Virus record (IMG/VR): IMGVR_UViG_3300036761_000373
Span: 1 to 21,724 of that record
From: a virus
Reading direction: 5' to 3' (one strand)
Length of the DNA stretch: 21,724 bases
Shown: piece by piece, positions 1 through 20,311 of the stretch
Layout: each line of letters begins with the position of its first letter
Numbering within the stretch: the stretch's first letter is position 1
Made by a program: the position numbers and the translations under genes
Notes under the pieces: generated by a model
What the model saw: only the letters and a program-made list of their open reading frames with translations
Told to the model about the DNA's origin: nothing
Database searches by the model: none

Positions 1-1145
1 ACCACGTCCACCGCCGGGAACGGGTCGATGAAGGGGACGTTCGGCCCGAGCAGGCCGAGGGTCGAGTACGCCTGCGACGCGCCCGCCACGGGCATGAGAC
101 GCAGTTCCGACGCCGCGCCCACCGTGGGCGAGATGAGGAGCAGACGACCTTCGCGGTCGTCGCGGGCCACGTCGGTCAGGAGCGTCGGGATCGCCGCCTT
201 GAGCGCGGCGTTGATCTGACGCGCCACCTCAACCGCGTTGAGGGTGCCGTGCGTGAGAACGATGGTCACGCCCGCGCCGGGGGCTCCGTCCACCTTCAGC
301 TTCACCGTGTCGTTGCTGGAGGTGATGATGAACGGCTGGAACTCGGAACCGAGGAACTCCGCGCTCGTCGCCGCCGTGATCGTGATCGGGGCGTCGTCGG
401 GGATGAGGGGGATGCGGATCATCGGCGTGCCGAGCGGAGCCATCTCCGCGCCCTGAAGGGCCGCGTCGCCGAGGATCGTGCCGCGATCCGACACGACATC
501 CGCCCAGTCCGTTGCGATGGAGTCGCCCACCAGCCAGCGGAGACCGGGGTCGTTCTTGTACTGCTTGGGGATGCGACGCTTCATCTCGGAGAAGATGCCC
601 TTCTGGATCGAGGCACCCTTCACGTCGAGGATGTGCGCCCCTTCGGTCTGGAGGTTCCAGCCGTTGAGACGGCGCAGGAGGCGGTCGCGGGGGCTCGTGC
701 CGACCGTGGTCACGTCGCCGTTGATGGCGAGGTCTTCCATGTCGGTCGAGATGCGCTCGACCATCGTGTTCATGATGGTCTGCTCGAACTCGTTCTGCTC
801 GATGTTGCCCTGCAACACCTCGGTCGTGATGTTCCACGCACTGCGGAGCTTCTGCGCCCGCAGGACGATGCGCTGGAACTTCGCACGGGACAGGTTGCCC
901 GTGTCGGTGGCCTCGTCCACGCTCTCCGTGACGGGCTCGCCGATCCACAGCTTGTCCACGTCCATCAGGGGACGGGGCATCCGGATGAACCGGGAGATCG
1001 GGAGCAGGACCGAGAACTTCTTGACGAGGGTGACGAACTGGGTCTGCTGAAGCGGGTTCAGCAACCCGCCCGTGAGAAGGTCGCTCGTGGCGATGGTCTT
1101 CTCGATCATCTCTTCGTTGGCATCACGGCTCGCTACAGCGTTCAT
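1..1145 (-). CDS. Major capsid protein, HK97 fold, 3' end cut by window edge
   Basis: This is the shell-forming capsid subunit. The frame starts at ATG 1145-1143 behind an AGGAGG site nine bases upstream and stays open for 381 codons to the left edge, so the C-terminus is missing. Family-typical segments are visible: an ESVDEAT stretch near residue 75, then a WNITTEVLQ stretch, then ERISTDMEDLAINGD near residue 140, which match the spine-helix and P-domain patterns of HK97-fold capsids. After the GTPMIRIPLIP segment (about residues 239-249), roughly 115 residues look foreign to the fold and resemble the flagellin hook IN motif (KVDG, then a T-L-NAVEVARQINAAL helix, then GRLLLISPTVGAAS, then TLGLLG). 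The gene follows the protease-scaffold gene after 38 bases, as expected for a head operon. The capsid identity is family recognition; the domain assignment of the insert is inference. Confidence 0.88.
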   Translation of the reverse strand, partial: MNAVASRDANEEMIEKTIATSDLLTGGLLNPLQQTQFVTLVKKFSVLLPISRFIRMPRPLMDVDKLWIGEPVTESVDEATDTGNLSRAKFQRIVLRAQKLRSAWNITTEVLQGNIEQNEFEQTIMNTMVERISTDMEDLAINGDVTTVGTSPRDRLLRRLNGWNLQTEGAHILDVKGASIQKGIFSEMKRRIPKQYKNDPGLRWLVGDSIATDWADVVSDRGTILGDAALQGAEMAPLGTPMIRIPLIPDDAPITITAATSAEFLGSEFQPFIITSSNDTVKLKVDGAPGAGVTIVLTHGTLNAVEVARQINAALKAAIPTLLTDVARDDREGRLLLISPTVGAASELRLMPVAGASQAYSTLGLLGPNVPFIDPFPAVDV

Positions 1146-1183: not shown

Positions 1184-2893
1184 CTAGTATTTGGCGGTGG
1201 CCTCGCCCGCCGCCTTGTCGAAGAGTCCTCTCCACGTCCCGGCCCTGCCCTTCGACGGCACCTTGACCGTGGAATCCACCGTCCCGCGAGGTCCGCTCTG
1301 GCTCACACCGCCAGCCTTCTCCACCCTGACCACGCGACCCTCCAGATCAGCGAGACGCCTGTTGGAGTCGTTCGTGACCGAGCCGAGTTCCTCCAACGAC
1401 TTCTGGAGAAGCTCGGAGTTCCGCGCCTGTTCCTCGGCCATCTTCTCGATGGCGACTTCGATGAAAGACTTGGTGATCTCGGTTTGCTTCTCGACCAGAC
1501 CGCCCAGAGCCTTCTCCAGCGACTCCGGAGTGAGGGACTTGCCGAAGTTGTCGTTGGTTCCGACCTGCGGAAGATTGCCCGCCTCGCGGAGCTTCTTCAT
1601 GGTGAGGTCGAGGGCTTCCTTGGCCGTCATCGTGGTGGACTTGATCTCCCCGCCCACCTGAATGTCCCGGCGGGAGTCGGTCACGGCAGTCGCGGCCATC
1701 GCCGCGTCGCCCGTGGCCTTGTCGGGGCTGAACGCACCCTTGGGGCTCGCGCCCGAAAGGTCGCGGGGCGCGAAGGGCGCATCCGCCGCGATCATGGACA
1801 CGGCCATCTGCTCGCCCGCGCCGAGAGCGGCACCGCTGGCCTTGGCGAGAAGGTGCCGAGTCGTCCAGAGGGCGTTGTAGGCCGCGTTGACGATCTCCTT
1901 CTCCTCGTCGCTTCCGGAGGAGAGAGGGGCGTCAGGGGTCGGGTTGTTGTACTTGGAGAGAAGGATGGCGATGTCGTTGACGAGATCAGCCACTCCGGTC
2001 TCTCCCGCGTTCCGGGCTTTCATCTCAGGCTTCATGACTTCTTTCTCCGGTTGGGGTTTGCAGTCCTTGACGGCCACCTTGTTCTCGGTTGCGGCAGGGC
2101 AGACGGCCTTCTCCGCAGAAGCGGGGCTGGCGGTCGTGGTGCTTGCAGGAGTCCGGGGAGTCGTCTCCATCTCGGTCGGCGTCTCCTCTTCCGTGGGAGT
2201 CCCTTCCTTGTTCATCTTTCCTCTTCCTCCGAACAAACGCCCGAGGGTCGCAAGTATCCCCGCGCCCTTTTTCATGTCGTCCTCGTTGACGCCTTGGAGG
2301 GCATCCTTCTCGACGCCCTGCCAGCCGTCCTTCTCTGCATCGTCGAGAGCCTTGGAGATGGCCTCGACGTATCCCGTCCGGGGATTCGCCGCCTGCTTCT
2401 CCCGCGTAGCGGCGATGTGGTCCAGATCGAGATCGTTGATGGTCCGAGCCAGTCCGCTCGGCGTCATCTCGACCGCCACGGAGTCGCGGTTCTTGAGGTT
2501 GAGCTTCCCGCCGATGGAAAGCTGACGTTTGCACTCGCCGCTCGCCACTTCCTTGAACAGCTTGCGGGCCTGCGGGAACTCGCCATCGAGTTCGATGGTG
2601 GCGAAGAACTTGTTGATCTTCTTGCCATCCTTGCCCACGCTGGTCACGATCTCACCGTCCACGGTCTTCCCGAACTCGAACGTGGAACGGTGATTCTCCA
2701 AGAACGGAACGCCCTTCTTCGAGGCGGTCGCCATCTTGGTGAGCGCGGCGGTGCTCATGCGATCACGCTGAAGGTCCAGCCCGTCGTCGCTGGCGACGGC
2801 ACGGACGTACATCTTCCCGGTCTTCTCGTCCTGCCACGCCTTTTCGCAATCGGCGTCGAACTCGAACCGGACGGCAGAGAACTTATCGTTCAT
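1184..2893 (-). CDS. Prohead protease (S78/HK97-like) fused to a scaffold-like C-terminal region
   Basis: Probable head-maturation protease that cleaves scaffold and capsid during procapsid maturation. The N-terminal 170 residues fit the HK97-type serine protease pattern: a DDGLDLQRDRM segment, H68 in FLENHRS, S126 in KRQLSIGGKL, and a closing INDLDLDHIAAT segment near residue 155. The remaining 400 residues contain a Thr/Pro/Ala-rich linker (about 230-280), acidic and alanine-rich stretches, and a helical, coiled-coil-like region (about 450-530) ending in a Lys/Arg-rich tail. This is the usual make-up of an internal scaffold. ATG 2893 is preferred over an upstream in-frame start at 2914 because a GGGGAG site sits just before it. 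It overlaps the portal stop by 11 bases, suggesting coupled translation. The capsid gene follows directly. Family assignment is by motif only. Confidence 0.8.
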   Translation of the reverse strand: MNDKFSAVRFEFDADCEKAWQDEKTGKMYVRAVASDDGLDLQRDRMSTAALTKMATASKKGVPFLENHRSTFEFGKTVDGEIVTSVGKDGKKINKFFATIELDGEFPQARKLFKEVASGECKRQLSIGGKLNLKNRDSVAVEMTPSGLARTINDLDLDHIAATREKQAANPRTGYVEAISKALDDAEKDGWQGVEKDALQGVNEDDMKKGAGILATLGRLFGGRGKMNKEGTPTEEETPTEMETTPRTPASTTTASPASAEKAVCPAATENKVAVKDCKPQPEKEVMKPEMKARNAGETGVADLVNDIAILLSKYNNPTPDAPLSSGSDEEKEIVNAAYNALWTTRHLLAKASGAALGAGEQMAVSMIAADAPFAPRDLSGASPKGAFSPDKATGDAAMAATAVTDSRRDIQVGGEIKSTTMTAKEALDLTMKKLREAGNLPQVGTNDNFGKSLTPESLEKALGGLVEKQTEITKSFIEVAIEKMAEEQARNSELLQKSLEELGSVTNDSNRRLADLEGRVVRVEKAGGVSQSGPRGTVDSTVKVPSKGRAGTWRGLFDKAAGEATAKY

Positions 2894-4778
2894 CGCTCCC
2901 CCCACGACCAACACTGGCTCCCATCATAACAAGACGGCGGGCATCCGCCATAAGTTCTGTTGCAATTCTGAAAGCACCTTCGGACATCCCTCGGGACCTG
3001 CTCTTTGAGGACAACTTGAGCCGGGGGTTTTCCTGCTTCCCGCGAGGTTCGTTGGTGAAAGCCGTAGGAGGCTCCTCGGGCATGAACGCATCTTCCGGAG
3101 CAGAAGGTTCTCCGCCCGCGCTCGGCTCCATCCCCGGCTCGCTCGGCGCACCTTCCTCGCCCGGCGCACCGCTCGGCATTTCCGGTTTCGGCATCGCCTG
3201 TTTTTCGTCGAGGGCGATGGCGAGTGCGAGCCCTGCGGTAAGTTCGGCCATCGCAACGGACAAAGGCTTGTCCGCGAAGTAAAAGTCCTTGGGGTAAGGG
3301 GGCTTCCCAATCTTCTCGCGCATTTCGTTCGGCGTCATAGCACCGAGCGAGGCGTAGATTTGATCCATCCGCGCCATGTCGAGGGGATCGGTGAGCGTGA
3401 GACGGGCGAACCGGAACTGAACTCGGACTTGCTTCCGGTACTCCTCCATCTCCTCGCGGTCGTCCGGCGTCTTGGGGTCGTTCCCGAGGAGGGCGGACAG
3501 GAGATCGAACACAATGGTCTGGTTGATGATGTATTCCTTGGCGAGACGATCCGGCTCGAACTCCTGCTCGTTGGTGATCTCGCGGGACACCTGCGAGGAT
3601 GCCTTGTTGACGTTCTCGGTGGAGAAGAATACCGGGGCCATGCCGAAGATTTCACGAACCTCTTCGTCGTTGGCCGTCCGGTAGGTCTGGAAGCTGGCGT
3701 CTTCGGTCACGCCCACGGTGAGCGGCTTGAGTTCGATAGCCGTCTTGTTCTGCTGTTGAAAGCCGACCTTCGTGGGCTCGACCTGAATGACCATCACCCG
3801 ATGAGCCTGATCTACGCCGCGAGCTTTCCCGCGAACGAAATCCTCGACCTGTTGCATCGAGTCCTGCGTGAGCCTTCCGCCGGAGACCAGAAGGGCCATG
3901 CGGGGCACGGCATCGTTCTCGAAGAAGTTGACGTTTCGGATCGCCGACTGGCGGTTCCCGGCGATGGCCGTCGAAGCCGGGACGTAGCGCGGAGCCCCGT
4001 AGTAGGAATTCGTGGGGTCGTAGATCATGAAGTGGAGAATTTCGGTCGCCCGACTCTCTGCGGAGAGGGCGTTCTTTCCTTCCGAGAACTCTCCCTTCAC
4101 GGAGTCCATCCCGCGCTTGTCGCCGAACTCCTTGAAGTACCGCTTCTGGTTTCCGCGAATCTGGACGAAGCCGTAAACCGTCTGCTTCCCGCTCTCGTCG
4201 CGCATGACCCGCTTCCGCATGGTGGTCGCGGGAACGTGGTAGAGGCGGATAATTTTTCCGGCGTTGTTCCGAACGACTTCGATGAAACCATTCCCCGTGG
4301 ATTCCTCGTCGGTCTTCATCAGGTAGCAGAGTTCGGTGAACGGCATCTTCTCGTTGGGGTAGCTGAACAAAGAGCGGACGATCTCGGTCTGCTCCTCGAT
4401 GGCTTTCTTTTCCTTGTCCTTGGTCTCCGGCGTGAGGGGGTGGATGGGTTCGATGTTCCATCCGAGGCCGACCGTATTCCGGGCGTAGGACCGGATGCAC
4501 CGGGCAAGTCGAGTGTTGATCTTGGGCGTCTGCGCCCAAACGGAGGGGTTGTAGGTTGGGGCGACGAATTCTCCGGACGCCTGTTGCTCGAACTGGTCGA
4601 GTTGGCGAGACTTGGCCTCGCCCTCGTTGCTGTCGTCTTCCGATCCGCGCTTGGAGTTTGCGGCCTCTACGCGACCGCCGCCCAATAGCGCGACCTTGAG
4701 AATCTCGTCCATATCCTCTTTGGTGACACTCCCCTTGAGGAGCGTTTCTCTGACGGTTCCGTTGAACTCTTCGTTCAC
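2883..4778 (-). CDS. Phage portal protein, PBSX-type
   Basis: The portal forms the dodecameric ring at one capsid vertex through which terminase pumps DNA and to which the tail connector docks. The protein is 631 residues long. The central part (about 190-460) carries the pattern of PBSX-family portals: ILHFMIYDPTNSYYGAPRY, a run of AI-GNRQSAIRNVNFFENDA, the clip/stem-like PRMALLVSGG segment, and a late REIFGMAPVFFS followed by QEFEPDRLAKEYIINQ. The C-terminal 100 residues are rich in Pro, Glu and Gly and are probably disordered. I place the start at GTG 4778, which shares a GTGA overlap with the stop of the preceding gene. An in-frame ATG at 4907 would lie wholly inside that gene and yields atypical sequence. 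Next downstream come protease-scaffold and capsid, the standard head order. Confidence 0.9.
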   Translation of the reverse strand: MNEEFNGTVRETLLKGSVTKEDMDEILKVALLGGGRVEAANSKRGSEDDSNEGEAKSRQLDQFEQQASGEFVAPTYNPSVWAQTPKINTRLARCIRSYARNTVGLGWNIEPIHPLTPETKDKEKKAIEEQTEIVRSLFSYPNEKMPFTELCYLMKTDEESTGNGFIEVVRNNAGKIIRLYHVPATTMRKRVMRDESGKQTVYGFVQIRGNQKRYFKEFGDKRGMDSVKGEFSEGKNALSAESRATEILHFMIYDPTNSYYGAPRYVPASTAIAGNRQSAIRNVNFFENDAVPRMALLVSGGRLTQDSMQQVEDFVRGKARGVDQAHRVMVIQVEPTKVGFQQQNKTAIELKPLTVGVTEDASFQTYRTANDEEVREIFGMAPVFFSTENVNKASSQVSREITNEQEFEPDRLAKEYIINQTIVFDLLSALLGNDPKTPDDREEMEEYRKQVRVQFRFARLTLTDPLDMARMDQIYASLGAMTPNEMREKIGKPPYPKDFYFADKPLSVAMAELTAGLALAIALDEKQAMPKPEMPSGAPGEEGAPSEPGMEPSAGGEPSAPEDAFMPEEPPTAFTNEPRGKQENPRLKLSSKSRSRGMSEGAFRIATELMADARRLVMMGASVGRGGSDER

Positions 4779-5125
4779 GGTACACCAATCTCGGCCCAAG
4801 TGATCGCAACGGAATGCTTCACGCCACCAGCGATTCCCGTCGTGCGAAAACGAATCCGTTGAGCGGGCACGAGGTCGATCTTCTCCGGGGAGCGCGAGTT
4901 GGGCCACGAGTAAACCTGCCCCGCGAACGCGGCCACCCTGTCGAGTTCGTACACTCGATCCCCGTCAACGATTTCCACGAAAAGGGATACCGCGCCTGCG
5001 GCATCAGCCGACCACAGAATCGTCCTTGCGGAAAACGGATGGTAGCGTGCGCCCGCTTCCTTGGTGATGTTGACTCCCGTTTGGAAGTCTCGCTCAACCT
5101 GAAGAGTTCCTTCGCTTACGCCCAC
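4775..5125 (-). CDS. Small protein of unknown function upstream of portal
   Basis: A 116-residue protein that I do not recognise. It has no membrane segment or signal peptide. The composition and alternating hydrophobic pattern (for example AVSLFVEIVDGDRVYELDRV and KHSVAITWAEIGVP) suggest a compact beta-rich domain, as is common in small virion proteins. The only suitable start is GTG 5125; the ATG at 5136 is in another frame and terminates after a few codons. Its TGA stop overlaps the portal GTG by four bases, so it is probably co-translated with portal and made late. A connector, decoration or head-completion role is possible but is inferred from position only. Confidence 0.7.
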   Translation of the reverse strand: MGVSEGTLQVERDFQTGVNITKEAGARYHPFSARTILWSADAAGAVSLFVEIVDGDRVYELDRVAAFAGQVYSWPNSRSPEKIDLVPAQRIRFRTTGIAGGVKHSVAITWAEIGVP

Positions 5126-5204: not shown

Positions 5205-5732
5205 TCACGGAATCGTTATCGGAACAGGGGAGCAAGTCTCCGAGAAATCGAGAGCGGGTTCCACGAAGAAAGTGGCGATCTCAGTTCGGAAATCGTCCAC
5301 GAATGTCGGAAGGACGATGTGCGCCTGAACTCGCCACTGACCCAACTGATCCAAGTCGCCCACCACGGTCTTGTACCGAAGTCTCCCGTCAGTCCCATCT
5401 GTCACGAAATCCGCGTTCTTGACCTTGGCACCGCTGAGAGGTCGTCCGAAGATTATCTGCTTGGTCGGCGCACTGCTCAGATCGACGATGACGCCGCTCT
5501 TGTCCAGAACGACGATCTCGAACACAACCCCGATGTCGCCGAACCTGACCGATCCGAGATTCGCCACAACTGCCCCCGGACTAATGCCTCGATGCAATCT
5601 GGCCTCGATGCGCGGCGCGATCTTCAAGACCAGCAGAAACCCGTCAGAGGCGGGAATGCACGATGACGGGATGTTGGGGAGAACCAGCGGTTGCCCAAAG
5701 GGGCCGCAGGCACCGTCACAACATCCCGTCAT
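5205..5732 (-). CDS. Probable virion protein with a BppU-N-like beta-sandwich pattern
   Basis: A 175-residue protein. Residues about 65-155 read like the beta-sandwich domain at the N-terminus of phage baseplate protein BppU and relatives: GDIGVVFEIVVLDKSGVIVDL, then a TDGTDGRLRYKTVVGDL hairpin, then LGQWRVQAHIVLPT. This pattern is widespread in small structural proteins of siphophages. The N-terminus is unusual: Cys residues at positions 4, 5 and 9 within the first ten residues, plus another near 25. These could bind metal or form disulfides. The start is ATG 5732 with a GAGG six bases upstream. It lies 10 bases after the preceding small gene and 79 bases before the next. A structural role is inferred; head or neck placement fits the neighbourhood better than baseplate. 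Confidence 0.68.
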   Translation of the reverse strand: MTGCCDGACGPFGQPLVLPNIPSSCIPASDGFLLVLKIAPRIEARLHRGISPGAVVANLGSVRFGDIGVVFEIVVLDKSGVIVDLSSAPTKQIIFGRPLSGAKVKNADFVTDGTDGRLRYKTVVGDLDQLGQWRVQAHIVLPTFVDDFRTEIATFFVEPALDFSETCSPVPITIP

Positions 5733-5742
5733 CTGGACCTCG

Positions 5743-5985
5743 TTAGACGTTCACCAACGAGTCGATGACCTGCACCCGGCGCGGCAAGGCCGCCACCGCC
5801 GTCTGGAGAGCACCGAAGTTCGCCGCCGCGATGATCGCGGCACGGAGTTCCTGACGTTCTTCGATGAGAGCCATGAGCACGTCACGCAGGTCCCAGATGT
5901 CCGAGTTCCCACGGCCCGTCTCGGGACGAATGAAGACGGTCTGCCCGTCTCCAACAACTTTCGGATCGCCACCACCCATCGGCAT
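5743..5985 (-). CDS. Small helical protein of unknown function
   Basis: An 80-residue protein with a Gly-rich, polar first third (MPMGGGDPKVVGDGQ) and a long predicted helix (about residues 32-65: DLRDVLMALIEERQELRAAI and on into an Ala-rich stretch), ending in a short VQVIDSLVNV strand. The start at ATG 5985 is supported by AAGGAG seven bases upstream. It sits 14 bases after the HAD gene and 10 bases before the BppU-like gene, so it is clearly part of the same operon. The helix could mediate oligomerisation. I recognise no family. Confidence 0.65.
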   Translation of the reverse strand: MPMGGGDPKVVGDGQTVFIRPETGRGNSDIWDLRDVLMALIEERQELRAAIIAAANFGALQTAVAALPRRVQVIDSLVNV

Positions 5986-5999
5986 AGTTCACTCCTTAA

Positions 6000-6629
6000 T
6001 CAAGCGGCCTCGGCCCACAAATACGTCCCTTGGAGGCCCAACAGGGCCTTGAGAAAATCTCGTCCTTCGTCGGGCCGGACAATTCTATCATCCAGTTCGA
6101 CACCGTTCTTGAGAATGTCGCCGACAATCGAACTCTTCGAGCCCATCCGCTCAACCACGAGACCATTCTCGAAATCGAAAATGGCAATGGGGGCGACTTT
6201 CCCTTCGCGGTCGGCAACCATGAGCTTGACGGAAGATTTGGTCTCCCCGTCTATCTTCCACATCGAGCGGCGGCGGTCGAGTTCGGCGATGGTCTTCTGC
6301 CAGTCCCCGTCGAAGGCAACGGCCTTGTCGTCCACGGTTGCGTTGAAGAAAATCTTGCGCGAGTAGTCCTTGGCGTCAGTATCGGGGTCCTCGTTGATAT
6401 GATCGAAGGGGATTCCGTGACGCTCCAGAAGATTCCGGGTCTGGGCAAGATCGGAACGGTGAGTCCAGATGATGATCTTCCATCCGGTACTCTTGAGGTA
6501 GATCAGAGCCTCCTTCGCGCCGGGAATGAGATTCTCATTCTCGTCCACGAGAGTCAGGTCGCAGTCAACCCCGATGACAGGGGCTTCTGCGCCCTGCTTT
6601 TCTACCACAACTCGCCGAGTTTTTCCCAT
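6000..6629 (-). CDS. HAD-superfamily phosphatase-like protein with an extra C-terminal domain
   Basis: Residues 18-112 carry the HAD catalytic set: motif I IGVDCDLTLV with nucleophile D22 and acid/base D24, motif II IIIWTHR with T56, motif III around K92 (DYSRKIFF), and motif IV VDDKAVAFDGDW with D100, D101 and D107. The short HAD with a DDKA--F-GDW ending resembles the small BT0820-type phosphatases and may act on a phosphoester, nucleotide or protein phosphate; the substrate is unknown. Residues 125-209 form an additional domain (KLMVADREGKVAPIAIFDFENG and on to a Leu-rich C-terminus) that I cannot name. The start at ATG 6629 lies 28 bases inside the end of the kinase-like gene, which suggests translational coupling of kinase and phosphatase. 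It sits inside the head-gene cluster, so protein or virion modification is a reasonable guess. Confidence 0.78.
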   Translation of the reverse strand: MGKTRRVVVEKQGAEAPVIGVDCDLTLVDENENLIPGAKEALIYLKSTGWKIIIWTHRSDLAQTRNLLERHGIPFDHINEDPDTDAKDYSRKIFFNATVDDKAVAFDGDWQKTIAELDRRRSMWKIDGETKSSVKLMVADREGKVAPIAIFDFENGLVVERMGSKSSIVGDILKNGVELDDRIVRPDEGRDFLKALLGLQGTYLWAEAA

Positions 6630-7504
6630 ACCCTCAGACCTTTGAGTTGCCGGATTCTTGAAATGACTCCGGCCTCTTCGTCGTTCTGGAAATTCCTCCC
6701 CCAGAGGAGGTCTTTCACTGCGGCCTCGTCGATGCTCTGGATTTCACCCAGTACGGAGGGGTGAATGGGAGTCCCTTTGAGATGCTTTCCTGCGCTCGTT
6801 CGGAACCACTTCCGGTTGTCGCCCTTCACGAAGGAGTACCCGTTGTCGATGGCGTAGACGCGGCGTTCCGCATCCATGATCCAGTTGTTCGAGTGGCGGT
6901 CGATCTCGCCCCGGATGAAATCGAAGGCCGCGAGTCTGTGGAGCCAAGGATTCTTCTTGTCCTTGCGGTAGTCGTATCCCCGGTCGATCCACTGCCACGC
7001 GGTCGGCTGGTCGGCCCACGCCTGTAGGCTCCCGTAGCCGATGACGGCGATCTCCCTTCCGATGGTGGGGGGAGTGAGATCGAACCCGATAAGCTGGTCG
7101 AGTTCGTAGGACAACATCTCGCGTTCCGGCCCGGTGATCTTGGTGTCCACGCTCTCGCAGTACCGCTTGTTCTCAAACTGGAAGTGGACAGTCTTGAGAA
7201 CAGCCTTCAGCGTGGTCATGATTCCGGACTCGATGCCGTCCTTGAACGTGACCTTGAACGGACGGTGGATTCCCTGTCCGATGGATGCAACTTCGGACTC
7301 CTCGGAATCCATAAGAGCCCGGCACATGAGATCGCGGGTCTCGGAATCCCCGTGCTTGCGAGAGAGCGGAGTCCAATCCCCCTCGGCCCCTCGCATCATG
7401 TCGAGAAGGCCGAGTGAGAGTTCGGCGGACCCCTTTTCCGGGTGTTCCTCCGGACGGAGGCCGGAAAAGAGTCTCGCCGCTAGGACGGACTCTCTGGTTT
7501 GCAT
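6602..7504 (-). CDS. PI3/PI4-kinase-like (HipA/Fam20-type fold) putative kinase
   Basis: A 300-residue protein whose C-terminal half has the signature of bacterial PI3/PI4-kinase-like enzymes. E134 lies in a SYELDQLIGFDLTPPTI segment, followed by a GYGSLQAW segment (156-163), the catalytic-loop motif D202-R203-H204 with N207 and W208, and the metal-binding-like IDNG motif at 219-222 followed by YSFVKGD. The ATP-binding Lys is less clear; K88, K100 or K104 are candidates in residues 80-105. Such enzymes phosphorylate proteins or small molecules; no substrate can be read here. The start is ATG 7504, with an AAAGGG site, ten bases after the preceding stop. A longer in-frame opening up to 7648 lies inside that gene and is basic low-complexity sequence. 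The gene overlaps the HAD phosphatase gene. Fold assignment is by motif; activity is inferred. Confidence 0.72.
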   Translation of the reverse strand: MQTRESVLAARLFSGLRPEEHPEKGSAELSLGLLDMMRGAEGDWTPLSRKHGDSETRDLMCRALMDSEESEVASIGQGIHRPFKVTFKDGIESGIMTTLKAVLKTVHFQFENKRYCESVDTKITGPEREMLSYELDQLIGFDLTPPTIGREIAVIGYGSLQAWADQPTAWQWIDRGYDYRKDKKNPWLHRLAAFDFIRGEIDRHSNNWIMDAERRVYAIDNGYSFVKGDNRKWFRTSAGKHLKGTPIHPSVLGEIQSIDEAAVKDLLWGRNFQNDEEAGVISRIRQLKGLRVWEKLGELW

Positions 7505-7514
7505 CCGCCCTTTT

Positions 7515-7874
7515 CTAGTCGCCGATGGCGAGGAACCGAATGCGCTGGGACACGCCCTGCGCTTCGATTTCGAGATCGAGGACTCCGCTCGGCGTCGAGG
7601 CCATTTGCACGAGCATGGTCTTGTACGACTTGACGCCGAACGCGCCACCGTCGAACTTGAGCCTTGCGCCGTCGCCGTCCGCGAGGAGCAGAGCCCACAG
7701 GGGGTCCGCGATGGACGCGACGAGGGGCGCGAGATCGACGCTCAGAGGCCCCGGCCCGAACGTATCGTCGAGCAGAGCCTTGGCGTTCGCGTTGAGGCCC
7801 GTGAGGGCGCGACTCAGGGAGATGCCGTCCGAGGTCGAGAGGCCCGCCGTTGCGTTGAACGTGAAGTTCGCCAT
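7515..7874 (-). CDS. Small protein of unknown function, probable structural
   Basis: A 119-residue protein with a Thr/Ser/Ala-rich N-terminus (FTFNATAGLSTSDGISLSRAL), a hydrophobic middle (DPLWALLLADGD) and a beta-rich C-terminus (VLDLEIEAQGVSQRIRFLAIGD). It has no signal peptide or membrane helix. The start at ATG 7874 has a very strong AGGAGG site, one of the best in the window, which suggests high expression and would suit a decoration or other abundant virion protein. That role is inference. It is separated by 10 bases from the kinase-like gene downstream and 18 bases from the Cys/His-rich gene upstream. Confidence 0.68.
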   Translation of the reverse strand: MANFTFNATAGLSTSDGISLSRALTGLNANAKALLDDTFGPGPLSVDLAPLVASIADPLWALLLADGDGARLKFDGGAFGVKSYKTMLVQMASTPSGVLDLEIEAQGVSQRIRFLAIGD

Positions 7875-7892: not shown

Positions 7893-8486
7893 CTATGTCT
7901 TACTGGTCGGAACCCACGAATGGGTATGTCCGTCCGCTTCGGCGGTCGTACCCATGACATTGATGTTGTGGTCGTGACCGTTCACCATGTCGGTCTTCCC
8001 GCGAATGACCTGACCGTTCTTGTCGGCGATGACAACGAGGCGATGCTTGTGGCTCGGGGACCTGATCCCCTCCTCTTGCGTCGTGATTGCCTCGAATCGC
8101 TTCTCGCCGAACTCCGGTCGAGACTGCCAATGCCACGCGCCCTGCTCATCGACTTGAACGGGGCCGGGGTTGGAGGTCACTGCCCCCGAAATATCCTTGA
8201 GGGTGAACTGGTCACACGCACCCATCGCTGACATGGCGAGCTTCCACGCGCCGCACCATCCCGCGAGTTCTCCACTGGCTTCCTTCGCGTCCTGCGCCTT
8301 GAAGTGCTTGCAGTTCGCGCAGGCTTTCGCCATCCCCACCGGGGAGCCGCCCGGAAGACACTTCTTGAAGTACGCATTTCCATCAACGACCGACACGAGT
8401 TCCCAACCCTCTTCACCCATCTGCTTCAGGAGATTGGGCTCGTTGGCGAGAAACTCCGCCTTCCGGACTTCGTGCGCGAACTTCAT
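7893..8486 (-). CDS. DUF4177-like protein with a Cys4 cluster and three His-x-His motifs
   Basis: A 197-residue protein with three visible parts. Residues 1-42 resemble DUF4177 (LLKQMGEEGWELVSVVDGNAYFKK at about 19-42). Residues 56-94 carry four cysteines, C56-x2-C59, C78 in a GWCGAW segment and C91 before DQF, which could bind zinc or an iron-sulfur cluster. Residues 145-191 contain three His-x-His motifs, H146/H148, H171/H173 and H187/H189, the last two as GHDH and GHTH. His-x-His motifs coordinate metal in phage tail-fibre and spike tips such as T4 gp37 and P2 gpV; whether that applies here is inference. The start at ATG 8486 has AAGGA six bases upstream. The same GH-x-H motif recurs in the protein encoded at 10899-11831. 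Exact function is unknown. Confidence 0.72.
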   Translation of the reverse strand: MKFAHEVRKAEFLANEPNLLKQMGEEGWELVSVVDGNAYFKKCLPGGSPVGMAKACANCKHFKAQDAKEASGELAGWCGAWKLAMSAMGACDQFTLKDISGAVTSNPGPVQVDEQGAWHWQSRPEFGEKRFEAITTQEEGIRSPSHKHRLVVIADKNGQVIRGKTDMVNGHDHNINVMGTTAEADGHTHSWVPTSKT

Positions 8487-10898: not shown

Positions 10899-11831
10899 TC
10901 AGACTCCGGACTTTTCCTTGGCGACTTTTCCCTTGGCCCGCTCGATGGCCCTCGTGAGTTGGTCGCGGAACAGGTTGACTTCTTCGGGGGCCTCCTTCAA
11001 CGCCGCCACGGGCTCCATGCCGGGGTTGAACGTGACGCGATGCTGGTGGGCGTGTCCGCCGACCGGGGACTGATCCGGGGCCGTGCGTGAGTCGAGGGAA
11101 CCATCGGGGTTGAGAGCGGCCTCGACCATGTGGGCGTGCCCGTTGTTGTAGCTGGTCAACCCTTGCACCCGGAACCCGGCGGGATCGGGGGAAGGGGTCA
11201 GGTGGAACTCGTGACGATGACCATCCTGCGGATCGGTCAGGCCGTGAAGAACGTCGGGCATTCCCGGCGTTGCGGCGATCACCGCGACCGGACCCTGATC
11301 GGGGAGGGCCAGTCCTCCTGACGCCATCGAGGTCGTCGTGATGCCGGGAGAGTGCATGGACGCCTGCCCGCCCTGCGAGGGACCTTCCTTCTCGGAGACG
11401 CCGACTTCGGCGATGACTCCGGGGGCGATCCACACCGCCCGAATGGTCTCGGGAGCGAGACGCTCGATGGAAACGTGGTAGGCGTGCCCGCCCACGTTCT
11501 CCACCTGTTCAGGCTCGCCGATCTCGCGGTCCTTGGCCCACGCCTTGACCGCATCCACGCTGGCGAACTTGCGAACGGAGAAGTAGAGTCCCCCGATCAC
11601 CATCTCGGGCTCCTCGGTCTCGCGCTTGTACTCCCCGAGGTCCCCGGTGAAAAGGGAATGAGGAGTCTCTCCTGCCCGGATGGTCTTCAGGGTGGAGTTG
11701 CAGTAGCGGCAGGCGAGCTTCTGCCCGACTGTCTGAGGACGCCATTCGAGCATCGACTCGACACAGCATCCTTTCATCAGGCCCGGAACCTCGACCCCGA
11801 GGCGACCGTCCCATTGTGTCTTCGTGGTCAT
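10899..11831 (-). CDS. Cys- and His-motif protein, probable virion protein
   Basis: A 310-residue protein. The N-terminus has a possible zinc site, C22-C23 and C41-x2-C44 (LACRYCNSTL). Residues 78-145 form a domain beginning GGLYFSVRKFASVDAVKAWAK, a Phe/Ser/Val-Ala-Trp pattern also common in small phage and prophage proteins. Residues 204-264 carry three spaced His-x-His motifs, GHRHEFH (204-210), GHAHMV (231-236) and GHAHQH (259-264), each about 27 residues apart, separated by Asp/Pro/Gly-rich linkers. The final 40 residues are helical and Lys-rich. ATG 11831 is chosen because AAGGAG lies just upstream; the frame above it runs into the preceding gene. The periodic His motif suggests a repeated metal-binding or trimeric fibre-like element. 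The function is not known. Confidence 0.72.
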   Translation of the reverse strand: MTTKTQWDGRLGVEVPGLMKGCCVESMLEWRPQTVGQKLACRYCNSTLKTIRAGETPHSLFTGDLGEYKRETEEPEMVIGGLYFSVRKFASVDAVKAWAKDREIGEPEQVENVGGHAYHVSIERLAPETIRAVWIAPGVIAEVGVSEKEGPSQGGQASMHSPGITTTSMASGGLALPDQGPVAVIAATPGMPDVLHGLTDPQDGHRHEFHLTPSPDPAGFRVQGLTSYNNGHAHMVEAALNPDGSLDSRTAPDQSPVGGHAHQHRVTFNPGMEPVAALKEAPEEVNLFRDQLTRAIERAKGKVAKEKSGV

Positions 11832-11841
11832 GTCGGCTCCT

Positions 11842-12585
11842 TCATCCCTTGATTCGAGCGGTGATTTTGTCGGCTTCTTCACGAGTAAGAAGCCCGACGC
11901 CCACCGCGTTGTTCACGACGAACTTCTTGATGCGGTGAGACTGCACTGCATCAAACTCTCCGGGGTCGCCATCGGCCCCGGCGATCTGGTCGATATCCAA
12001 GAACGCCTCGGCGATGAAATCCGGCGCACCCGAGACGATCTCCTTGATGACTGCAAACGTCGGCAGATCGACTTCCTTCCGGACCTTGATCCGATCCCGC
12101 TTCTCGGTGATGAGCCGGGACACGTCGCGGAGAGCCGCCGCATTCGAGAGCCAGAACATCTTGATCTTCTTGCCCTCTTCCGTGGTCGGCTCTTTCATGG
12201 CGCGAGCCTTGGACGTGTAGGAATTGGCGATGCCTTCGGCCTTCCCGATGGCGCGGTTCATCTTGTGCCACTTGGGGGGTTCGTTCCCGGCGTGATCCGC
12301 CTTGGGGGAGTAGAAAAGGAATCCCTTTTGACGCCCGGCTCCGATGGAAGCCTTCTCGTAGGCGTTCGCCTTCCCCTCAAGAACTTCTCGGCTGAGTTGG
12401 GCGGCGACGTTGAAAGCGGCGTTGGCTTCGTCGGTGAACTTCCCGAATTCGTCGCGCCACGGATTTCCACGCTCGACGATCTCGGCAGTGTCCTCCGCTT
12501 CGGGAACATCAAAGTACGATTCCTTGATGCCGCCGAGAACAGAGGCGAACTTGAGACCGTAGCGAAGACTTTCTGTGGTCTGCAT
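11842..12585 (-). CDS. Protein of unknown function with a WRDEFGKF motif
   Basis: A 247-residue, mostly helical protein of unknown function. A short GNPWRDEFGKFTD segment (about residues 40-52) matches the 'RDE-GKF' type motif often seen at cleavage or linker regions of phage head proteins; I do not assign meaning to it. Residues 60-175 are Lys/Ala-rich helices (AFNVAAQLSREVLEG, TTEEGKKIKMFWLSNAAALRDVSRLITEK). The C-terminus holds more helices and ends GLLTREEADKITARIKG. The start is ATG 12585; TTG 12588 is the alternative. No Shine-Dalgarno site is evident, but a TTGACA element sits about 50 bases upstream in a 65-base gap, so this may be the first gene of its own transcript. Confidence 0.68.
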   Translation of the reverse strand: MQTTESLRYGLKFASVLGGIKESYFDVPEAEDTAEIVERGNPWRDEFGKFTDEANAAFNVAAQLSREVLEGKANAYEKASIGAGRQKGFLFYSPKADHAGNEPPKWHKMNRAIGKAEGIANSYTSKARAMKEPTTEEGKKIKMFWLSNAAALRDVSRLITEKRDRIKVRKEVDLPTFAVIKEIVSGAPDFIAEAFLDIDQIAGADGDPGEFDAVQSHRIKKFVVNNAVGVGLLTREEADKITARIKG

Positions 12586-13310: not shown

Positions 13311-13520
13311 CTAATCTATCTCATCCATCATACGATACAGCCATTGCAAAACGAAGCGGTTTGCGTCGGAAAGAAGTTTCTCTGTTATCGGAAGACCCAC
13401 GTACCTCTTCTCAAGCTCGTAGGCAAGGTCGTGATAGTAGGGATGGAACTTGTAGGGGATGTTAAAAATAGAAATGGATTTAGAGGCCGGGTCATACTGG
13501 ATGTATTGGGTCGGAGGCAT
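13311..13520 (-). CDS. Small protein of unknown function after the large terminase
   Basis: A 69-residue protein rich in Tyr and aromatic residues in its first half (TQYIQYDPASKSISIFNIPYK) with a helical second half (LLSDANRFVLQWLYRMMDEID). The start ATG 13520 overlaps the terminase stop by one base (TAATG), so it is probably translated by reinitiation after the terminase. I compared it by eye with the KTSC-type pattern and it does not fit. Function is unknown. Confidence 0.65.
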   Translation of the reverse strand: MPPTQYIQYDPASKSISIFNIPYKFHPYYHDLAYELEKRYVGLPITEKLLSDANRFVLQWLYRMMDEID

Positions 13521-15385
13521 TACAACACCACCACCTGCCCGTCACTGGACTTCCGTGGAATTGATTGGAGCGCATTCCCCGGAACCGTGACTCCCTGAAC
13601 CGTCACCTGAGATGAAGTCGGAGGGGACGATCCTGCAAACGTGGGCCGGGGCCGCACGAGAACCTGATCGGGGGCCATCTCGTTCTCTTCCAAGTCCTCT
13701 CCGAACTTCTCCTCGAACTGGAAGTGGAGCATCGAGCAGAGCATGGCGTCGGGACCGTGGTCGTCCTTCTTGACAGGCTTCCCGTACTTATCCTGCCTGT
13801 ACCTCTTGAGTTGTTCGACGAGTCCGGTGTGGCACGACCGGATAAAGAATCTTTCCTTGGTCGTGAAGTATTTGGTGCAGTTTCCGATCCCGTAGTCCTT
13901 CCACTTGAGGAAGAGGACGCGGTTCATGTCGAACCCGGCCTGCTCCACTTCGAGGTTGTTGAACGGGTGGCTCGCGTCGGCGTAGACGTGGAACTTGTCC
14001 TGCCCGTACTTTTCCATCCACGACATGAGGATTCGGAGGGCTTCGCTCGTGAGCTTCCCGGTCATGTATTCCGTTTCGAGAATCCCCACGCACTTCTTGG
14101 TGGGGGCTTCATCCATGAGTTTCTGTGCGATCCGGAGTTCCGGATTGTAGGACGGGTTGGGGATTTCGATGAGAGCGGAGAGGACGAGGGCAGTCTGCCC
14201 CTCCAGACCCCAGTCGATCCCCACGGATTTCTCGATGATCCGGGCCTTCTCCCCCGGCCACTCCGGGTCCACGAGACTGTTCTCGATCCAAATCGTGTCG
14301 TAGACCGGACGCATCCAGTTGGGACGCTCGTTCTCGTACTCGACAGCGAAGACGTTGGTCCCCCGGTTCATCTTCTTGGCGATGATGACGTTCTTCCGGG
14401 GGAGGAATCCTTGGGAATGACGAGCCTTCCCGTTGCACCCCTTGAAGTGCCAGCCCATCTGGACTCCGTTCTCGTCGAAGGTCGGAGCCTTCTCGGTGAG
14501 AGGGCATTCGGTTTGGCAGTATTCCAGTGCTTGAGGGTCTTCGGGCGTGGCGGTCTCCATCCCCGTATCGCACTTCTCGATGGCGTCGTAAATGTTCCAG
14601 TTGAACCGCGTGAATCCGCGCTCCTCCGCGAAGTCCCAAATCTCTTGGAAGAGGCCGATGGGATGGTGGAACGTGGACAGGGCGAGGACCATGAAATTCG
14701 GTTCCGACATCGCGCCCTGCATGGCCGCAGAGATCATGCGGTCGGTGTTCTCGCCTTCCTGACACGACTCGTCCACCACGAACCCGGCGTTGTGCTTACC
14801 GCGAGCCTGCTTCTCGGACGCGGAGATGATCTTGAGTACAACGCCGTTGGTGAATCGAGTCTCGGTCTGGAGAGGGTCTCCGTCGATGATGGCGCGGGCG
14901 AACTCGGGAAAGCAGTCCCAGAAAGATTTCGTGTAGTGGTATACCTGCTTCGCCTGATCCTGCGATCCGGCCATCATGGTGAAGCTCATCTTGTGGTAGA
15001 CGAGCGAGAGCCAGATGATGATGGACGTGCAGAGGGAGCCTCCCGTTCCACGGCCCTTCCAGAGAATCGCCTGACAGGTTCTCCGGTAGAACAGATCGCA
15101 GATGAACGAGAGCATGGTTGGGGCGAGCTTGAGGGCGATTTTTCGGGCGTCCTTGGCAAACCACAGTTTCGTTTGAAGGAACTCGGAAAGTTCACGATTC
15201 TGCCGGGCGATGAAGCTGGCGTCCGTTTCGACTTCGGATTTCGGACGGAGGAGATCAGGGAGCCCGTAGGATCGAGGGTCCTCGACTTTGATCCTGCGCT
15301 TGATCTCGCTCTCGACGAGGGTGAGATGTTGGAGATCGGAACTGACCTGACGGAAGGCTTCGCCCTCTTTCTTAGTTCCTCGCAC
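13520..15385 (-). CDS. terL: Terminase large subunit (packaging ATPase and nuclease)
   Basis: The motor that cuts concatemeric DNA and pumps it through the portal. The ATPase domain has a deviant Walker A, K110-GRGTGGS-117, in which the usual GK[ST] Lys is a Gly while a Lys lies at the front, similar in layout to the lambda gpA class. Walker B is VVDE at 203-206, preceded by the ARGKHN adenine-region pattern, and the coupling motif is LST at 236-238. The nuclease domain shows three acidic residues in the expected places: D391 (VGIDWG), D470 (VYADAS) and D546 (DHGPDA). Between the domains, C272, C290, C294 and C317 form a probable zinc-binding insert. The 40 C-terminal residues are Pro/Ser-rich. 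The annotated start GTG 15385 overlaps the small-terminase gene by 14 bases; no clear ribosome site is seen, so the start is uncertain. Confidence 0.92.
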   Translation of the reverse strand: MRGTKKEGEAFRQVSSDLQHLTLVESEIKRRIKVEDPRSYGLPDLLRPKSEVETDASFIARQNRELSEFLQTKLWFAKDARKIALKLAPTMLSFICDLFYRRTCQAILWKGRGTGGSLCTSIIIWLSLVYHKMSFTMMAGSQDQAKQVYHYTKSFWDCFPEFARAIIDGDPLQTETRFTNGVVLKIISASEKQARGKHNAGFVVDESCQEGENTDRMISAAMQGAMSEPNFMVLALSTFHHPIGLFQEIWDFAEERGFTRFNWNIYDAIEKCDTGMETATPEDPQALEYCQTECPLTEKAPTFDENGVQMGWHFKGCNGKARHSQGFLPRKNVIIAKKMNRGTNVFAVEYENERPNWMRPVYDTIWIENSLVDPEWPGEKARIIEKSVGIDWGLEGQTALVLSALIEIPNPSYNPELRIAQKLMDEAPTKKCVGILETEYMTGKLTSEALRILMSWMEKYGQDKFHVYADASHPFNNLEVEQAGFDMNRVLFLKWKDYGIGNCTKYFTTKERFFIRSCHTGLVEQLKRYRQDKYGKPVKKDDHGPDAMLCSMLHFQFEEKFGEDLEENEMAPDQVLVRPRPTFAGSSPPTSSQVTVQGVTVPGNALQSIPRKSSDGQVVVL

Positions 15386-17902: not shown

Positions 17903-18526
17903 TTACGGGTCCAGTTCGATTTCCCAATAGGCCCGCGAGACGAACTGCTCCCACGACTCCATCCTTTCGTGAGGAGCAATGTGGGAGATCGCCTTCCATG
18001 ACGGCTTCTTTGGAACCTTCCGGAGCTTCATGCCCGCCTCGTCCGGAGTCCGATTGGCCTTCCGCTTGTTGCACTCTACGCAAGCGAGAATGCAGTTCGT
18101 CCAAGACGAGACGCCCTTCCGAGACTTCGGCATAACGTGATCCACCGTCAGCAGTTCGGGTCCGGGCTGGAGCCCGCAATACTGGCAAGTGTAGCGGTCA
18201 CGCTTGAAGAGGTTGCGGCGGCTGAATACGACCGACCGCTCGCCCAACTTGTCGTAGTTGGTGAGGACGATGACTTCGGGCGGAACGAGAGCGAGACGGC
18301 AGGAGCGGATCACCGCGTCGCCATACTTCACTCTGGACTTCGAGACATCGCTCCACGAAAACAGATCGAGGGAGCAGAATGTCTCTGGGTCGATGATCTT
18401 GGCCGACCCCTTCGACACAAGAGCGATGGCCTCCTTGACCGTCGTGGTCTGGATAGGAGCCCAGTTCTTGTTGAGGATGAGGACTGGCCGCTCAAGGACT
18501 TTTGCCATGTTCATATTCATAATCAT
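17903..18526 (-). CDS. HNH endonuclease of the McrA-like chromosomal type
   Basis: A 207-residue protein (201 from the last candidate ATG at 18508). From 18508, residues 1-100 carry the N-terminal region typical of this family (PVLILNKNWAPI, VKEAIALVSKGSAKII). The HNH core follows: CQYC at 108-111, DHVMPKSRKG at 123-132 with D123-H124, N138, then C143/C146 with N147 (CVECNKRKANRTP). The four Cys bind structural zinc and DH-N-N form the nuclease centre. This arrangement matches the widespread bacterial HNH/McrA-like family, so it may have been taken from a host chromosome or act as a phage nuclease in packaging or recombination. Four ATGs occur within 21 bases (18526, 18520, 18514, 18508); a TAGAAT box overlaps the first, so a later start is likely if it is a promoter. 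Confidence 0.82.
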   Translation of the reverse strand: MIMNMNMAKVLERPVLILNKNWAPIQTTTVKEAIALVSKGSAKIIDPETFCSLDLFSWSDVSKSRVKYGDAVIRSCRLALVPPEVIVLTNYDKLGERSVVFSRRNLFKRDRYTCQYCGLQPGPELLTVDHVMPKSRKGVSSWTNCILACVECNKRKANRTPDEAGMKLRKVPKKPSWKAISHIAPHERMESWEQFVSRAYWEIELDP

Positions 18527-18553
18527 TCTACGGGCTGGAACAATTTTGCACAA
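18525..18553 (-). promoter_or_regulatory. Candidate promoter before the HNH gene
   Basis: The minus strand reads TTGTGC (18553-18548), 17 bases, TAGAAT (18530-18525). It lies just after the last tRNA. Three of six -35 bases and five of six -10 bases match sigma70 consensus. If used, the HNH protein would start at one of the ATGs at 18520, 18514 or 18508. Confidence 0.4.
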
Positions 18554-18556
18554 GAT

Positions 18557-18633
18557 TGGTCTCCCCGGTAGGATTCGCACCTACAGTCTCCGAGTTCGTA
18601 GCTCGGCGTCTTATCTAGTTGGACCACGGGGAG
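18557..18633 (-). tRNA. tRNA-Arg, anticodon ACG, with encoded CCA and atypical loops
   Basis: Acceptor stem CTCCCCG pairs with CGGGGAG, and discriminator A is followed by encoded CCA. The anticodon stem CCGAG/CTCGG encloses CTACGAA (anticodon ACG). The T-stem GTAGG/CCTAC encloses TGCGAAT, so position 55 is G, not U. In the D-loop the canonical GG reads AG, so position 18 is A. The 13-22 pair in the D-stem is C-A. ACG would need inosine formation at position 34 to read CGU, CGC and CGA. The missing G18 and U55 are both elements of the normal D-T loop tertiary pair, so this tRNA may be specialised or decaying. Confidence 0.88.
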
Positions 18634-18634
18634 T

Positions 18635-18710
18635 TGGTGCCCCTACAAGGACTCGAACCTTGATCTGAACCTTCGGAGGGTTCTGACCTGTCCAATTGGT
18701 CGATAGGGGC
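18635..18710 (-). tRNA. tRNA-Arg, anticodon CCG, with encoded CCA
   Basis: The acceptor GCCCCTA pairs with TAGGGGC; discriminator A, CCA encoded. D-arm GACC/GGTC with a GG-containing loop; anticodon stem GAACC/GGTTC enclosing CTCCGAA (anticodon CCG, reads CGG); T-stem CAAGG/CCTTG with a TTCGAGT loop. One base separates it from the next tRNA, so the two are almost certainly processed from one transcript. Confidence 0.94.
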
Positions 18711-18714
18711 CAGA

Positions 18715-19185
18715 TTATTTTCGAGCAAGCCGATGGCCCTCTCGACAAAGAGGGCAACGGCATCGGTGGTTGAGGTAGGTGCTGTTCGACCCATGAACCG
18801 GAGTTCGGGGCTGAAAGTTAAATCTCGCGGAACAGGCCCTTGAGCAAAAGCTCTTTCTCCCGCGACCCGATTGACTTGGAAGCCTCTTGAATCTCTTCTT
18901 GCACTGAGCACACCTTAGCTTGAGCCTAACCCTTGGATGGTGAATTTTACCATGCCCAGTCTTGGTTGTGAGTTTCAAGTTCCGGATCGTGTTGGGGAAC
19001 TTCTTGTCGTTACGATGATGAACGATCTCGAAGGACTTCAAGAATCTACCGAGGTGACACTCCATCACGAATCGGTGTTCGTACACATACCCCGTCGCGT
19101 AGGCGTGGGGATGACCGGGAATCTTGACGTAAGAATATCCGTGGCTCCTTGACCGAGCCGTGATCTTCAAGTCTTGAGGTTTCAT
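18715..19185 (-). CDS. HNH homing-type endonuclease with zinc finger
   Basis: A 156-residue protein lying between two tRNA genes. The HNH core is the phage homing type: E36-H37 (YEHRFVME), a [15 protein letters not shown] segment with H56-H57, N65 and N69-L70, and H78/H82. A Cys4 site follows at C92/C95 and C114/C118. The C-terminus has the [17 protein letters not shown] pattern, a small Cys-rich module seen attached to other phage and actinobacterial HNH-type proteins. ATG 19185 is preferred over the in-frame opening at 19239, which lies in the tRNA. An extended -10-like TGG-TATACT precedes it. The position between tRNAs suggests it is a self-propagating homing gene; whether it cuts its own target is unknown. 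Confidence 0.82.
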
Positions 19186-19197
19186 CCTAGTGCATTG

Positions 19198-19206
19198 AGT
19201 ATACCA
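19198..19206 (-). promoter_or_regulatory. Candidate extended -10 promoter before the second HNH gene
   Basis: The minus strand reads TGG-TATACT (19206-19198), twelve bases before ATG 19185 and directly after the tRNA-Arg(CCT) CCA end. The same TGG-TA pattern occurs before the zinc-ribbon gene. No -35 is seen. Confidence 0.4.
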
Positions 19207-19209
19207 CGT

Positions 19210-19287
19210 TGGTATCCCCGGCAGGACTCGAACCTGCAATTTGCCTCTTTAGGAAAGAGGTGCCCTGTCCAGTTAGGCGACGGGGAC
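19210..19287 (-). tRNA. tRNA-Arg, anticodon CCT, with encoded CCA
   Basis: Acceptor GTCCCCG pairs with CGGGGAT with a G-U at 1-72; discriminator A, CCA encoded. D-arm GCCT/GGGC with GG in the loop; anticodon stem CCTCT/AGAGG enclosing TTCCTAA (anticodon CCT, reads AGG); six-base variable loop; T-stem GCAGG/CCTGC with TTCGAGT. It is the third arginine tRNA in 730 bases, separated from the other two by the HNH gene. Confidence 0.94.
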
Positions 19288-19324
19288 GTGCGTCTGCTAC
19301 ACCACGGAGATGTGTTGGTCTTGC

Positions 19325-19678
19325 CTAGACCTTTTTCGGAGTGACTTCGGTGATTCCCTTGAGTTCTTCTACCTTGGCGTCTATGAATGTCGGCTTTGGC
19401 TTTTTGTCCTGATCCAACTTCTCTCGGACTTGGGTTCCCGTGAGTGTTTGTCCGCGAAGAGATTGTTCGTGGGCCTCTTGAAGCTGGTCCATATGCCTGT
19501 CGATTATCCCCTCTTTCCGAATCATCTCCTCTCGGGCAATCGCCGTCGTCTGGAACGACGCGCTGACGCGGTGGCGACGCTTCCTGAGAAGAGTCATCAG
19601 GACCGCGCACACCCCTCCTCCGACCAGCGCGAGAACGATCCCGATGGCGATGGGAGGAACGGACTGGGTGGCGAGCAT
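19325..19678 (-). CDS. Small membrane-anchored helical protein
   Basis: A 117-residue protein with one N-terminal membrane segment (about residues 8-32: PPIAIGIVLALVGGGVCAV and on), followed by a basic RKRRHR stop-transfer and a long Glu/Lys/Gln-rich helix (50-85) and a Pro/Lys-rich tail. The positive charges after the helix suggest the tail is cytoplasmic. The single anchor plus coiled-coil tail resembles an inner-membrane spanin or a holin-associated protein by layout, but with the wrong orientation for a spanin. ATG 19678 overlaps the preceding stop by one base (TGATG); GTG 19681 is an alternative. A GGGGG-containing site precedes it. Confidence 0.64.
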   Translation of the reverse strand: MLATQSVPPIAIGIVLALVGGGVCAVLMTLLRKRRHRVSASFQTTAIAREEMIRKEGIIDRHMDQLQEAHEQSLRGQTLTGTQVREKLDQDKKPKPTFIDAKVEELKGITEVTPKKV

Positions 19679-20046
19679 CACGACCCCCTTTTATCCTTGA
19701 TGAGCGCGATAATGACTTCGAGACTCGATGCGAACTTGTCCATCGTCGCCTGCTGATTCTTCGCCAGAGAGACCACGACATCAAGGCTCGTTGCGAACTT
19801 GTCCATCGCCGCCTGATACTTCCCCGCCATCTCGATGTACTGGGAGATGAACTTGTCCTTGTCCGCGAGCATCTGGTCGATACGCTTCTCGTAGCTCGCA
19901 TCCTTGACCTTGATCCAGAGGGCACAGGCAATCAAGCACGCCCCCGCCACTCCCGCGCTCAAAAGCACGTTCATGATGCCGGGATCGTGCGCCACAACCT
20001 TCGTCTCGTCCGCGAATGAAACCAAGGCGAGTATCAGTAGTGTCAT
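19678..20046 (-). CDS. Membrane protein with tandem repeats, holin candidate
   Basis: A 122-residue protein. The first 12 residues are hydrophobic and end in SFA-DE, which may be a signal peptide; a membrane segment follows at about 24-45 (IMNVLLSAGVAGACLIACAL). The rest is a charged helix starting KVKDASYEKRIDQM, and the last 42 residues are two copies of a 21-residue unit (MDKFATSLDVVVSLAKN and MDKFASSLEVIIALIKD). The N-terminal membrane segment followed by an E/K-rich helix with a Tyr-x-x-R/K pattern resembles BhlA/UviB-type holins, but this is by layout and not by close sequence match. It sits between two other small membrane proteins, so a lysis module is plausible, although no endolysin is present in the window. 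Confidence 0.62.
   Translation of the reverse strand: MTLLILALVSFADETKVVAHDPGIMNVLLSAGVAGACLIACALWIKVKDASYEKRIDQMLADKDKFISQYIEMAGKYQAAMDKFATSLDVVVSLAKNQQATMDKFASSLEVIIALIKDKRGS
19729..19808 (-). repeat. Tandem repeat of 63 bases (21 codons) in the holin candidate
   Basis: A 17-base run is identical at 19729-19745 and 19792-19808, exactly 63 bases apart, and the flanking positions are also similar. It encodes the MDKFA core of two 21-residue heptad-like units in the C-terminal helix. Confidence 0.72.
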
Positions 20047-20100
20047 CGAAATCCCCTTTCATGGAAACCTACCACATTCCAGAACCGGGGGAAAGGGGGA

Positions 20101-20307: not shown

Positions 20308-20311
20308 TGCC

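Follow-up and report, generated by a model that had tools for sequence, protein, structure and literature searches.

A viral record of 21,724 bases from IMG/VR (the window, analysed over its whole length; the virus is bacterial) carries two overlapping genes, KIN and HAD, which encode a homologue of the PI3/PI4-kinase-like protein kinases and a HAD phosphatase-like protein and are, as judged from sequence, probably two active enzymes of opposite chemistry. KIN (300 aa; 6602..7504, minus strand) and HAD (209 aa; 6000..6629, minus strand) share 28 nt (6602..6629, minus strand); coordinates, lengths and overlap are exact, which bears out the first-pass annotation. The two genes are adjacent, with an identical 28-nt overlap, in all seven lineages collected, which is more than chance. 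No description of a fixed KIN/HAD pairing was found in the literature and collections searched, and within that scope a fixed kinase-phosphatase pairing appears to be previously undescribed. By profile comparison both proteins belong to known superfamilies, but neither falls in a named family by cut-off.

In order of transcription, all on the minus strand, the genes are a ParB-like gene; the terminase large subunit (TerL; 13520..15385; phrog_9, 8e-11); mostly unnamed genes; KIN; HAD; an 80-aa protein (g80; 5743..5985); a 175-aa protein (5205..5732); the portal protein (2883..4907; PF04860, 2e-27; phrog_12, 1e-41); a 576-aa protein; and the major capsid or virion structural protein (MCP; 3..1145; PF05065, 7e-5; phrog_1623, 5e-55). 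A 119-aa protein (g119; 7515..7874, minus strand) is encoded immediately 5' of KIN in every relative, and is present in two copies in L046 as a tandem duplicate (L046:9201-9978). Upstream of it lies a conserved neighbour of 197 aa (g197; 7893..8486, minus strand), the C-terminal part of which resembles phrog_15223 (annotated as protease). In relatives g80 is always immediately 3' of HAD, and the 175-aa protein is kept in most of them. Spacing between the pair and its flanking genes is 10-14 nt, so that the pair is probably read within one operon. A promoter scan gave a single weak minus-strand site, which lies 3' of the pair at 5191-5163; terminator-like matches were no commoner in the window than in shuffles. 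Genes that overlap in this manner are usually co-translated, and translational coupling of KIN and HAD is likely.

The annotation had placed the pair inside the head gene cluster. This holds in outline, with TerL upstream and portal and MCP downstream, but the immediate neighbours are mostly unnamed and are not known capsid genes. For that reason, and because collagen-like or fibre-like genes lie just 3' of the pair in L006/L046 and L058, the location is better called 'between terminase and portal' than 'among known capsid genes'. The L006 gene (L006:9389-11839), just downstream of the pair, encodes an 816-aa collagen-like protein; a different, repeat-rich fibre-like protein of 566 aa is encoded at a comparable position in L058 (L058:7337-9037). 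Elsewhere in the window, the proteins encoded at 7893-8486 and 10899-11882 share a C-terminal motif of the GHxH type, rich in histidine, and weakly match YmaF and phrog_15223, and genes for an NDP-sugar epimerase and a nucleotidyltransferase lie at the upstream end (20312-21723).

KIN contains DRHSNNW at residues 202-208 and IDNG at residues 219-222, where the annotation had located a DRH--NW catalytic loop and IDNG. D202, N207 and D220 align with distant phage kinases; K104, in a strand-like AV(L/M)KT motif, and E129, 25 residues C-terminal of it, are by alignment the probable beta3-Lys/alphaC-Glu pair. K104, E129, D202, N207 and D220 are the candidate catalytic residues. An alignment that had placed K113 as the beta3 lysine was rejected, since L058 has R there and the position is not invariant. 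Against Pfam PF00454, KIN scores 19.4 bits, below the cut-off of 27.1, which is exceeded by the distant phage kinases L036, L028, L038 and Mx1. The best family-profile match is TIGR03843 (SCO1664 family), which residues 122-291 match with E from 2.3e-11 in the window to 8e-16 in L058; scores of the KIN lineages (43.5-58.1 bits) are far under the 172.4-bit cut-off. Alignment of KIN to an actual SCO1664-family member with hhalign gave P 8e-7. When the KIN profile was compared with the PDB, FAM20A, FAM20B and FAM20C were the sole matches (E 3e-4), though the score against Fam20C (PF06702) was 12.6 bits, below the cut-off of 26.8. These comparisons place KIN, as a protein-kinase-like protein, within the kinase superfamily on its PI3/4K-SCO1664-Fam20 side. 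Its predicted fold and ATP pocket are assigned in the same way, the AlphaFold2 model built from 7 sequences (mean pLDDT 44) being too poor to use or to judge the pocket, and Foldseek on it meaningless. HipA kinase identity was rejected: HipA_C gave no match at E<=1, and the downstream gene encodes a HAD protein. A scan of the immediate neighbours gave no HTH match (HipB partner). PADLOC defence matches were also rejected.

The actinobacterial, PI3/4K-like SCO1664 family (TIGR03843) shares with KIN the motif ER..Y....GFDxVPPTxxR....G.GSVQ.WV and the catalytic block; unlike KIN, SCO1664 is a cellular gene with a TIGR03847/TIGR03848 neighbourhood, not a phage gene, and is without a HAD partner. 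The Fam20 kinases (FAM20A/B/C) have in common with KIN an AE/REIAAFHLDRLLGF..PP.VGR helix and FDFxxGxxDRH, but overall similarity is very low and Fam20 kinases are animal secretory-pathway proteins. A kinase domain of the same type is present in gp16 of the haloviruses HCTV-6, HSTV-2 and HRTV-7 ('phosphatidylinositol kinase', phrog_37179), which, unlike KIN, is 490 aa long, has an extra N-terminal domain and lacks an adjoining HAD gene.

The HAD motifs are D22-x-D24-x-T26 (motif I), T56 (motif II), K92 (motif III) and D100-D101 (motif IV), so that the complete set of motif I-IV residues described by the annotation is present. The core is BT0820-like, a comparison that the annotation had proposed: the HAD profile matches 2OBB with E 5e-12, and the predicted model (pLDDT 75) has 2obb as its best Foldseek match (E 5e-5), while the score against the BT0820 equivalog NF046079 (33-37 bits) is below the 165-bit cut-off. 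The core, alike in HAD and the BT0820-type phosphatases (2OBB; NF046079; phrog_1238), comprises about 110 aa (residues ~16-125) and has no cap domain in the predicted model; capless HADs are able to reach phosphoproteins. Foldseek matches also include proteins annotated as prohead proteases. HAD differs from the BT0820 type in an extra C-terminal domain (residues ~128-209), which the annotation had put at 85 residues; it is about 82 residues long, consists of mixed strands and helices in the model and is lineage-specific, a scan for the domain alone returning loci of the KIN/HAD clade only. It was considered as a mobile partner of such kinases and rejected: comparison with neighbours of the L028 or Mx1 kinases gave no resemblance, and the ART protein beside the L036 kinase resembles it only marginally, at the N-terminus (hhalign P 0.001, probability 18%).

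Relatives were collected by alignment-based scans and by searching DNA for a pattern that encodes G-[E/N/D]-x-DRHxNNW, and represent seven distinct lineages: the window (with the near-identical L042), L043, L044/L045, L046-L048, L049, L050 and L058. Pairwise identity between lineages is 49-82% for KIN and 38-70% for HAD. Invariant across the seven are K104, E129, D202, N207 and D220 of KIN, and D22, D24, T26, T56, K92, D100 and D101 of HAD. The candidate catalytic residues of both proteins are intact throughout, with none of the loss of a catalytic aspartate that the annotation had named as refuting its reading. Overall, 107/300 positions of KIN and 43/209 of HAD are invariant; given the latter, the probability that all seven chosen HAD residues are invariant by chance is ~2e-5. 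Because these residues are invariant despite identity down to 49% (KIN) and 38% (HAD), the motifs of both proteins are judged not to be chance. In every pair with unsaturated dS, dN/dS was <1 (KIN 0.14-0.52; HAD 0.17-0.64; rough values, with dS close to saturation in many pairs), and by this measure both genes are under purifying selection.

Phage operons often show gene overlap and synteny, and the TerL-to-MCP order is also kept in the clade, with losses, a duplication and insertions between the 175-aa gene and the portal. The co-occurrence of KIN and HAD in relatives, which the annotation had wished to see checked and which is complete (7/7), is clade-level conservation and not independent pairing, because the entire TerL-to-portal block is syntenic within the clade. 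Two scans of genome contigs with kinase alignments gave no relatives, and hence no copy in a prophage or a cell. In L050 (L050:1-3632 and 18187-20892) TerL matches break at residues 140 and 264 and the portal match at residue 441, and in L058 (L058:11199-12626) the portal match breaks at residue 163; the interrupting insertions are likely inteins or introns, and the window copies of TerL and portal are uninterrupted.

Among the collected sequences the KIN profile matches L028 (E 1e-11), L036 (1e-7), L038 (1e-5) and HCTV-6 gp16 (2e-5). The gp16 gene has a head-completion gene on one side and a tail-completion gene on the other; the L036 kinase is preceded by a MuF protein and followed by an ADP-ribosyltransferase (ART); the L028 kinase is near a DUF2213 protein; and in Myxococcus phage Mx1 the kinase is encoded after a NUDIX-ART-GNAT polyvalent protein, in the interval from MCP to tail sheath. 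In L053, a relative of L036, a GNAT-kinase fusion directly follows a MuF-ART protein. The MuF protein (L053:1063-5301) has an intein-like insert and an ADP-ribosyltransferase domain; GDLPGHPFRGNQW linkers are repeated between the domains of this protein and of the GNAT-kinase fusion (L053:5305-6951). Phage effectors of the polyvalent or MuF-linked kind adjoin or are fused with portal and MuF proteins, with kinase, GNAT and ART domains sharing loci; enzymes so linked have been argued to be packaged and injected, and the kinases of the published polyvalent group are described as without the C-terminal subdomain (PMC5512222). The KIN and HAD of the window are separate, unfused, single-function genes, unlike multidomain polyvalent effectors and unlike the L053 and Mx1 kinases, which are multidomain or beside multidomain proteins. 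No HAD gene lies directly beside the kinase in the kinase-bearing viruses found outside the clade (HCTV-6, L028, L036, L053, Mx1), and no kinase was found near BT0820-like HADs of other viruses within the flanks seen. One such HAD is fused to the C-terminal side of a portal protein (L067:2956-6969) in which a LAGLIDADG-type intein is apparently inserted. Weak matches in two gut records of the phage collection, MT835969 (L013) and MT836127 (L014), were discarded as phage evidence; their gene sets are bacterial (a SCO1664/TIGR03847/TIGR03848 locus and a HipA-like locus, respectively), and the records are probably not phage.

The annotation had proposed that coupled opposite activities form a phosphorylation switch. 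The intact residues, the pairing and the probable activity of both enzymes agree with this, and the switch itself is plausible rather than proven. We tentatively favour, at somewhat less than an even chance, a head-associated, possibly injected, opposing pair that would phosphorylate reversibly. KIN and HAD would be co-produced at almost equal levels by transcription of the late (packaging/head) unit; both would become head- or portal-associated and enter the next host together with the DNA. In that host KIN may phosphorylate one or more proteins, and HAD, which as a capless enzyme could act on bulky substrates such as phosphoproteins, may limit or reverse the mark, or stop premature marking during assembly. 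We infer virion association because related kinases occur among virion or effector genes elsewhere and a HAD is fused to the portal in L067; a shared substrate is assumed from the adjacency of KIN and HAD, and a protein substrate and antagonism are likewise putative. Against this reading count the lack of fusion to portal or MuF in the window, the absence of an adjacent HAD outside the clade and the pLDDT of 44 for KIN; no packaging signal was found for either protein.

Injection would not be needed if KIN marked a virion protein (g119, g197, a fibre-like protein or the portal) during assembly and HAD removed the mark again, so controlling when maturation, fibre attachment or ejection takes place. 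Placement in the TerL-portal block, the conserved immediate neighbours g119 and g80 and the fibre-like genes close by in L006 and L058 are consistent with such a switch, which we nevertheless think unlikely: relatives elsewhere occur in effector-type GNAT fusions and beside ART, and no protein with conserved phosphosites emerged as a candidate substrate. A comparable, low likelihood is given to an action on small molecules (a sugar phosphate, a nucleotide or a lipid head group), for example in DNA hypermodification or glycan decoration. Many HAD phosphatases use small phosphates, weak Foldseek matches of HAD include phage AfhF (D-arabinose 1,5-diphosphate phosphatase, 9iqw), and the epimerase and nucleotidyltransferase genes are in the window; these genes, however, are ~13 kb off and were not seen to adjoin the pair in any of the relatives examined, the modelled HAD core of ~110 aa lacks a cap domain, and KIN groups with PI3/4K-SCO1664-Fam20 and not with known sugar kinases.

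The order of the genes, with overlap, is that of toxin then immunity, and related kinases occur in MuF-ART effector loci, so that KIN could be a toxic host-directed kinase from which HAD protects the producer cell; this is improbable, as conservation of the two genes is uniform and neither varies as genes of toxin-immunity cassettes would be expected to, and HAD, present in 7/7 lineages, has a conserved C-terminal domain of its own. Equally improbable is an incidental adjacency, in one operon, of two accessory enzymes of the late region that are unrelated to each other. The whole TerL-MCP block is syntenic and outside the clade neither enzyme type was found with the other, but the overlap stays at exactly 28 nt between lineages with proteins ~50% identical, in a block from which other genes were lost or in which they were duplicated or displaced. 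A split polynucleotide kinase/phosphatase for nucleic-acid end repair, suggested by PHROG 415 (polynucleotide kinase) as a secondary HAD match, is contradicted by the KIN sequence, which has no P-loop (no GxxxxGK[ST]) and carries the DRHxxN...IDNG signature of the protein-kinase-like superfamily, and was rejected as extremely improbable.

Kinases near phage head genes are present in databases and mostly unnamed (phrog_37179, 3162, 8728 and 11186), and for none of those met in these searches has a counter-enzyme been suggested; the KIN profile ties together the SCO1664-like, halovirus, MuF-ART and Mx1 kinases. If a matched protein kinase and phosphatase were carried in the head and into the host, which is a speculative extension of the favoured reading and on balance doubtful, phosphorylation in the first minutes of infection would be self-limiting and reversible, and the C-terminal domain of HAD might tie the phosphatase to the kinase or to its substrate. 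The conserved, overlapping pair would offer a small, testable model of how phosphorylation may be reversed during virion assembly or host takeover.
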